A program made the translations under genes and the position numbers. From an uncultured Oleiphilus sp. (GTDB taxonomy: Bacteria > Pseudomonadota > Gammaproteobacteria > Pseudomonadales > Oleiphilaceae): a DNA stretch of 64,000 nucleotides. The stretch is taken from the NCBI GenBank assembly GCA_913020245.1, contig CAJWAD010000006.1, positions 1 to 64,000 of the forward strand, written 5' to 3'. Numbering within the stretch: the stretch's first letter is position 1; each line of letters opens with the position of its first letter. Below the pieces are notes generated by a model. That model saw only the letters and a list, made by a program, of their open reading frames with translations. It was not told where the DNA came from and did not search any database. Positions 14,608 through 16,726 of the stretch are shown one piece after another.

Positions 14608-14657
14608 AGTATTAAAAAAGCCCGGTGCGCCACTGCTCACCGGGCTTTTTTAATACT
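14608..14657. terminator. Strong, potentially bidirectional intrinsic terminator after pilU
   Basis: 20-bp perfect stem AGTATTAAAAAAGCCCGGTG / CACCGGGCTTTTTTAATACT, 10-nt loop. Confidence 0.92.
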
Positions 14658-15048: not shown

Positions 15049-15077
15049 TAAAAAAAGGGAATCCAATGGATTCCCTG
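15049..15077 (-). terminator. Intrinsic terminator oriented on the minus strand, with no CDS upstream of it on that strand
   Basis: Minus-strand AGGGAATCCA/TGGATTCCCT hairpin followed by TTTTTTT. Confidence 0.7.
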
Positions 15078-15273
15078 AAGGTCTTTGTAACAACTAGGAT
15101 TTTGAAAATAGCGATGGGAGAATACTAAGCGCTGCGCTATTTTCTTTGCGCCAATACCTTAACTGTAGCCGACAAATTTTATCTTGCTGGTGAGGCTACA
15201 AAACAACTACAAACGTAGTTTTTCGTTACATTTCTTTGTGCGCGCCCGATATTAAAATTATTGTTAGATTATA
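15052..15273 (-). ncRNA. Candidate small RNA (predicted, unverified)
   Basis: Minus-strand TATAAT at 15273-15268, internal hairpins (AACTAC-gttt-GTAGTT; 10-bp CGCTATTTTC/GAAAATAGCG), intrinsic terminator at ~15050; no credible ORF. Confidence 0.4.
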
Positions 15274-15451
15274 AAAAACAATGGTTTAGCTTGCATAAGC
15301 TAGAATATAGGTTATATTTGTGTTGTAAGTTTTTTCTGCTGTTCGGCTTAGCTTAATTTTGTGTCCGTGCGTTGGCGGTAAAAACGTAACCACTAAACTA
15401 GAAAATAGAGCGTTATAAAGGGATGTGGCGCTAAGGTAAATAGGTAGCAAT

Positions 15452-15649
15452 ATGTCGCAACAAGAAGGCTCAATCACTGCATGCAGCAGCGAATCTCCAG
15501 AAAATCTTCGTCACAATGTAAGACAACAACTTTCCTCGGATGTAGATGCGTTTTTAAACGGTGGAGGGAATGTTGAGAAAGTCGCAGACAATGTGCGTGC
15601 TGATCCCCCGCGTAAACCAAATATGACCTACGGATCTGCGCCTATTTAA
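15452..15649 (+). CDS. Small SutA-like protein (RNA polymerase-associated regulator family, putative)
   Basis: C-terminal VDAFLNGGGNVEKVADNVRADPPRKPNMTYGSAPI resembles the conserved SutA C-terminus as I recall it; followed by a terminator. Confidence 0.6.
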   Translation: MSQQEGSITACSSESPENLRHNVRQQLSSDVDAFLNGGGNVEKVADNVRADPPRKPNMTYGSAPI

Positions 15650-15970: not shown

Positions 15971-16726
15971 ATGTTGATTGATGTTTATAACGTAGTTATA
16001 GCGCTTACCCTTGCGGCCACCGGAATATTACTGGTTCGCGATTACGCTCGTTTTTTAACGGGCGTACATTCTATTAAGGCGTCGGTGACGTCAATACAGC
16101 AAGTATTTCTGCCTCCGCCTACTGAAATTTCGCCATGCGTAAACCGGTTTGTTGTAGATGGTTATTATCCGGTTGTTCAGTACAACACCGAGAGCGGTCC
16201 AGTAAGTTTTACTGTTACCGACCAAGAGACGTCTGGCCGCTTCCACATAGGGGATCGTATTCGCTTACGGGTGACGAAGACGCGTCGTAAAGAGAACCGC
16301 GTTTGCAAAAGCTTTACTTTATTGGGCAGTTTATTGTGTTTATTGATAGCAGGGTTGCTTGCGTCCGCATTTGTCGACGGCATCCAACTTAACGCAGCGC
16401 AGATTGTGGTCGCATCATTCGTACTCGCGTTTTGTCTCCTAGTGATTGCGCGATTTAAACGCGATCAAGAGGATTTTCACAGCCTAGATATGGTGCAGAG
16501 TCAAACAGGGCTCACGCAGCTATGTTTGAGTGAACCGACGGCATTTAAATACTGGCGGACAGCGATGATGGACAGGGCGCAGTTGAACAAAGTTCGTTCG
16601 TCTCAATTCTTCGGTTTCGCCTGTTTCGGGGCGGCGGCTGTCGTTGTAATAGCGGCAGTTTACCCATCGGTCACTTCGTTTATCGATACGGCTGCGCTGT
16701 TCGATACCTTGGCCAGCTACACCTAG
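15971..16726 (+). CDS. Membrane protein of unknown function (DUF3592-like soluble segment)
   Basis: TM helices at the N-terminus, middle and C-terminus; VVDGYYPVVQYNTESGPVSFTVTDQETSGRFHIGDRIRLRV. Confidence 0.7.
   Translation: MLIDVYNVVIALTLAATGILLVRDYARFLTGVHSIKASVTSIQQVFLPPPTEISPCVNRFVVDGYYPVVQYNTESGPVSFTVTDQETSGRFHIGDRIRLRVTKTRRKENRVCKSFTLLGSLLCLLIAGLLASAFVDGIQLNAAQIVVASFVLAFCLLVIARFKRDQEDFHSLDMVQSQTGLTQLCLSEPTAFKYWRTAMMDRAQLNKVRSSQFFGFACFGAAAVVVIAAVYPSVTSFIDTAALFDTLASYT

Follow-up and report, generated by a model that had tools for sequence, protein, structure and literature searches.

Does the intergenic DNA beside pilU in an uncultured Oleiphilus sp. encode a small RNA (sRNA), and, if it does, on what would that RNA act? 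The window analyzed here is a stretch of 64,000 nucleotides (NCBI GenBank assembly GCA_913020245.1, contig CAJWAD010000006.1), and its positions 15049 to 15275 had been read in a first-pass annotation as an orphan promoter-terminator pair marking an unannotated minus-strand sRNA. The RNA ending at that terminator is strongly backed by conservation, by compensatory changes, and by a conserved partner site, but the promoter and start assigned to it are probably wrong. The main correction is that the supposed orphan transcript becomes a conserved sRNA that starts later and probably targets rpoS. A trans-acting sRNA of ~105 nt, made from a sigma-S-like promoter and base-pairing with the rpoS leader so as to change RpoS synthesis, is the explanation that we consider likely. 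Its predicted parts are as follows.

15049 to 15155, minus strand: predicted sRNA of ~105 nt, with a putative start and its end at the terminator; a conserved block in six genomes.
15104 to 15144, minus strand: 5' hairpin GAAAATAGCG...CGCTATTTTC with the loop UUCUCCC (15122 to 15116), supported by covariation.
15087 to 15098, minus strand: single-stranded seed CCUAGUUGUUAC, conserved and complementary to the rpoS leader.
15049 to 15076, minus strand: intrinsic terminator AGGGAATCC-ATT-GGATTCCCT followed by T7, with nine pairs and a loop of three.

Five Oleiphilus-type metagenome-assembled genomes (this genome, G001, G002, G003, and G004) make up the genus set, to which a closed, O. messinensis-like genome of 6.38 Mb from a separate genus (G013) was added. 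Homologs with the hairpin, the single-stranded CCTAGTTGTTA, and the terminator are found in all five genus genomes and in G013, where the copy reads TTTCCTAGTTGTTATATCTGTTTCGAGGCAGTAATTACTGCCTC-TTTTT and is given 28.2 bits (E = 0.004, with 128 kb searched) by R1, the model for the wider family search, whose sensitivity is barely enough for this genome. The hairpin loop segment is UCUCUCCA in most relatives. In the alignment of the genus sequences, both partners have changed in 4 of the 11 pairs of the 5' hairpin, where 94.5% of cells are paired, and in 3 of the 8 pairs of the terminator; jointly, the two stems have 91.6% of cells paired and seven pairs changed on both sides. The covariation score is 0.384 against 0.215 ± 0.037 for shuffled alignments and was reached by none of 500 shuffles, while slides of 1 to 3 columns did far worse; the alignment is of few sequences (five), and the shuffle control leaves their relatedness in. 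Mean identity across the genus is 74% for 15049 to 15155 and rises to 97% in the seed, which has 11 of its 12 columns invariant, is present in G013 too, and is the most conserved part of the sRNA. The first-pass annotation had named a lack of conservation in close relatives as evidence against its own proposal; what was found is a homolog with covarying stems in five of five genus genomes. The sRNA gene is very probably real.

The sequence elements from which the annotation started are present. The minus-strand TATAAT lies at 15273 to 15268, the strong stem AGGGAATCCA/TGGATTCCCT (15076 to 15056) runs into seven T's, and the two arms of the 10-bp inverted repeat occupy 15104 to 15113 and 15135 to 15144. 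An additional AACTAC hairpin was located at 15205 to 15220 (AACTAC-AAAC-GTAGTT in the plus-strand reading) but is unconserved in relatives. A search of Rfam returned no family at gathering or loose thresholds, in agreement with the earlier impression that no known RNA was recognizable. Nor is there a convincing open reading frame (ORF): no long one covers the strand, and a conserved small ORF was rejected, the reading frames being unconserved and different among the homologs. An RNAalifold helix, GGCUAGG/CCUAGUU, was set aside, as none of its pairs is compensatory and two of the sequences interrupt it.

Taken singly, the promoter, the terminator, and the fold are not beyond chance. Terminator-like sites in the region number 4, where 3.0 ± 2.5 are expected, promoter-like sites are fewer than the chance expectation, and the fold of the originally proposed 214-nt RNA has a z score of −1.6. 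These values are what could be expected from a chance promoter-terminator pair with no gene, yet the conservation is beyond chance, and with the compensatory changes and the synteny across six genomes it makes such a coincidence hardly credible.

Searches for wider occurrence located the family in these genomes. Outside them, model R1 gave weak matches in g12 and g5, none with the CCTAGTTGTTA motif, and the sole weak match that was read (L021 of g5) proved to be a plain terminator. In the rest of the order, CCTAGTTGTTAYA shows no enrichment over its reversed control. Three g12 genomes (L088, L089, and L090) have the stretch CCTAGTTGTTACAGCTGTCGRAAAAAGTTTGAGCCATCTGCGCTG in common, with no terminator after it and no further resemblance to the sRNA. 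We regard the RNA, previously undescribed, as a new family, although of a familiar kind, in Oleiphilus-type marine genomes: its gene is independent and intergenic, has an intrinsic terminator, and encodes a conserved structure, which are features of trans-acting sRNAs.

A further feature of that kind is an unpaired, conserved seed that matches the complement of an mRNA from another locus, and this is found with rpoS in all six genomes. When the six genomes were searched for exact complements of this segment and, independently, for rpoS, the two coincided in G013 and G003. More generally, the invariant CCTAGTTGT is complementary over 9 to 14 contiguous bp to the rpoS leader in six of six genomes, at sites that begin between −90 and −54 relative to the rpoS start codon, within the nlpD-rpoS region. 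The sites are ATATAACAACTAGG in G013 (14 bp), GTAATAGCTAGG in this genome (12 bp with 2 G-U), AACAGCTAGG in G004 (10 bp, 1 G-U), AACAACTAGG in G003 (10 bp), ACAACTAGG in G001 (9 bp), and GACAGCTAGG in G002 (10 bp, 2 G-U). When the whole sRNA is compared with the leader, the run between seed and site is the best in five genomes and tied best in the sixth. Among 500 mononucleotide shuffles of each rpoS leader, the observed score was matched by 0, 6, 14, 7, 29, and 33 for the six leaders. No other run of columns in the leader that are invariant or vary by transition only is as long as the site, and where two of its columns vary (C/T and A/G), pairing is kept through G-U. The seed of this genome ends in GUUAC rather than GUUAU, and its leader carries a G opposite that C. 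As for other targets, most of the remaining exact AACAACTAGG sites fall inside a gene or have no start close by, and there is none that appears repeatedly in a leader.

It could be that the sRNA is real and rpoS is not its target, the leader element having a role of its own (for example, as a leader hairpin or a protein site) and the complementarity being fortuitous or secondary. We rate this as rather unlikely. A comparable site is absent from 22 of 27 rpoS leaders of relatives in other genera, these 22 being relatives without the sRNA, and the element coincides with the most conserved sRNA segment in six of six genomes. In its favor, in some genomes the element can fold locally into short stems (AAC..GUU), and several observations weigh against pairing with rpoS or against the wider proposal. 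The remaining five leaders all belong to genus g7, three with matches of 11 to 12 bp and two with 8, and no g7 sRNA was found by model R1 or as CTAGTTGT followed by a terminator in the 2.0 of 4.25 Mb read of genome G027; because the match stands in g7 leaders while no sRNA was found there, the leader element may have its own function. In addition, the six genomes are mutually related and are not independent trials, the assignment of the promoter to the sigma-S class uses a short consensus only, and in leader folding, covering the site has an effect of about zero in the genomes other than G013 and the opposite effect in G001, with no consistent sign. The g7 negative covers half of one genome, and R1 barely reaches G013. 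If a g7 sRNA with CTAGTTGTTATA exists, the main objection is gone.

The sequence GGGGTAGTYCATATAACAACTAG, or a near-identical one, is common to the rpoS leaders of g7 (L186, L188, and L190) and of G013. This leader element may serve a function besides sRNA pairing.

With rpoS as the probable target, the mechanism proposed is that the RNA would be transcribed on the minus strand from the promoter at 15190 to 15162 and ended by the terminator at 15076 to 15049, that the exposed CCUAGUUGUUAC, flanked by the 5' hairpin and the terminator, would pair with the rpoS mRNA leader, and that this pairing would raise or lower RpoS synthesis, so that the general stress response, which the sRNA probably tunes, would be under feedback. 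Transcription, promoter type, Hfq dependence, and regulatory effect are all predictions in this scheme. Direct ribosome occlusion is not the first expectation because a site at −54 to −90 falls beyond the usual footprint of the ribosome; the mechanism of DsrA, RprA, and ArcZ, in which an inhibitory structure of the leader is opened, appears somewhat favored over it. In G013, the site is predicted to pair with a segment from about −8 to +2 that takes in the start codon, with a probability of ~0.45 to 0.73, and covering it cuts the cost of opening the ribosome-binding site (RBS) by up to 1.8 kcal/mol. A second pairing, of the UCUCC loop with the rpoS Shine-Dalgarno sequence, is suggestive in G003 (8 bp, UCUCCAAA/UUUGGAGA) and in G001, although not general, and would repress. 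The effect on rpoS may therefore have either sign, since folding indicates opening in G013 and the opposite in G001 and the UCUCC loop could act as a repressor.

Where the RNA starts is a separate question, and two minus-strand elements bear on it.

15162 to 15190, minus strand: sigma-S-like promoter, CCAGCA (15190 to 15185), 17 nt, C, TACAGT (15167 to 15162); consensus in six of six genomes.
15268 to 15273, minus strand: TATAAT of the first-pass annotation, probably the upstream zone of the promoter of a SutA-like gene (described below) or a minor second promoter.

In all six genomes, each of which also has an rpoS gene, GCA-N17/18-CTANNNT stands at the head of the conserved block. The variants are CCAGCA-17-TACAGT in this genome, CGGGCA-17-TAGGCT in G001, GCGGCA-17-TAAGCT in G002, CAGGCA-17-TAGGCT in G003, CACGCA-17-TAGGGT in G004, and GAGGCA-18-TATGCT in G013. 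The start is put at ~15155 because the C at −13 and TANNNT fit the sigma-S −10 element, which, as (T/G)CTATACT, was used to locate the promoter of RgsA, a Pseudomonas sRNA (PMC2375449). The transcript would then probably run from ~15155 to 15049, starting ~105 nt later than first proposed. As a promoter, the TATAAT is probably wrong: it is the sigma-S-like promoter that is conserved and that directly precedes the conserved RNA. A ~214-nt RNA from the TATAAT, with the conserved part as its 3' half or a processed product, seems unlikely; in its favor, the hexamer is perfect, the zone around it is 65% conserved in the genus, and G004 matches there. The zone, however, overlaps the region upstream of the conserved plus-strand promoter of the SutA-like gene, with the hexamer directly upstream of that promoter; four relatives have TATAAC, TATATA, TATAGC, and TATATA in its place, and identity between the TATAAT and the hairpin (15191 to 15261) is only 41%. 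The −35 region had already been called weak, and a minus-strand search gave no sigma-70-like promoter with a −35 box.

Starting from the sigma-S-like promoter, the predicted RNA can be compared with known regulators of rpoS. In Escherichia coli, DsrA, RprA, and ArcZ open an inhibitory stem of the rpoS leader by pairing with that leader (PMC6215814). The Oleiphilus sRNA resembles them in being complementary to the distal rpoS leader in all six genomes; no sequence relation to them was found (no Rfam match), only G013 gives an indication that a stem blocking the RBS would be opened, and, whereas the E. coli sRNAs activate rpoS, the Oleiphilus RNA may act with either sign. RgsA (Rfam RF00628, P16) is sigma-S dependent and is reported to lower RpoS (PMC9308961, PMC2375449). 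The shared plan of a sigma-S-type promoter, a length of ~105 to 120 nt, a hairpin with a C-rich loop, a single-stranded block, and a terminator, together with the partial similarity of UCCUAAUGGUCUU and UCCUAGUUGUUAU, could suggest a diverged RgsA of this lineage. However, the seed is different, the Rfam RgsA model (RF00628) matches neither the window nor the homologs, and the idea of orthology was rejected because separate RgsA-like genes coexist with the sRNA in G001 and G013; we consider it very improbable. Among 84 genera sampled from the order, 26 have RgsA-like genes (L101 to L115 and L117 to L133), mostly under the Rfam cutoff; several genera belonging to this family have them too, frequently with GTCTTTCATGGATACTACTC, so that the Rfam RgsA family seems far wider than Pseudomonas.

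For Pseudomonas aeruginosa, ReaL has been reported as the first sRNA that silences rpoS via base pairing (PMC6215814). Like ReaL, the Oleiphilus sRNA would be directed at rpoS through base pairing; its site lies 54 to 90 nt upstream of the start and its seed is internal. Enterobacteria also have SdsR (RyeB), which is sigma-S dependent and has a CUCUCCC segment. The sigma-S link, putative in the Oleiphilus RNA, and this segment (the SdsR sequence was checked in E. coli genomes) are points of resemblance, but no Rfam match was found, SdsR has pphA as its neighbor, and it is without the CCUAGUUG seed.

The constant neighbor of the sRNA gene is a short gene on the opposite strand.

15452 to 15649, plus strand: divergent 65-amino-acid (aa) gene with a SutA RNA-polymerase-binding domain (PF20661, E = 1.8e-10, 40.4 bits against a cutoff of 29.3).
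15291 to 15318, plus strand: promoter of the SutA-like gene, TTGCAT-N16-TATATT, with the same layout in the genus alignment.

The sRNA gene is divergent from and adjoins the SutA-like gene in five of five genus genomes, and in G013 it lies 4.3 kb upstream of it, also divergent. The earlier placement downstream of pilU is right for this genome, but the neighbor on that side varies, with an FkbM-type methyltransferase, a glutathione-S-transferase-like gene (both named by sequence reading), and others elsewhere; the position of pilU is incidental because it neighbors the sRNA only here. The 65-aa protein aligns to the last 45 positions (65 to 109) of the 109-position SutA model, and it appears to lack the acidic N-terminal region that SutA has in P. 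aeruginosa. There, the N-terminal part of SutA includes a D/E-rich region that helps open the polymerase, and SutA preferentially stimulates sigma-S-carrying RNA polymerase (PMC9300723).

The location beside a SutA-like gene brings two levels of sigma-S control together at a single locus. It is possible, although we hold the idea tentatively, that a sigma-S-dependent sRNA gene and a short SutA-like gene sharing an intergenic region form a self-contained sigma-S module with RpoS feedback via the distal leader, an independently evolved Pseudomonadales counterpart of the DsrA/RprA/ArcZ circuit. How sRNAs control rpoS has been worked out well chiefly for enterobacteria. If the proposal is true, leader-based posttranscriptional control of rpoS would seem to have evolved more than once, with a lineage-specific sRNA and a leader site in two genera, and a concrete pair of seed and target is now defined for it.

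Two minor features flank the locus. A long inverted repeat, AAAAAAGCCCGGTG...CACCGGGCTTTTTT (window positions 14613 to 14654), closes pilU and could terminate transcription of both strands. After the SutA-like gene, positions 15971 to 16726 (plus strand) encode a membrane protein of ~250 aa with no confident Pfam match, and the cluster of this gene with the SutA-like gene is conserved in the same order in relatives, including G013.
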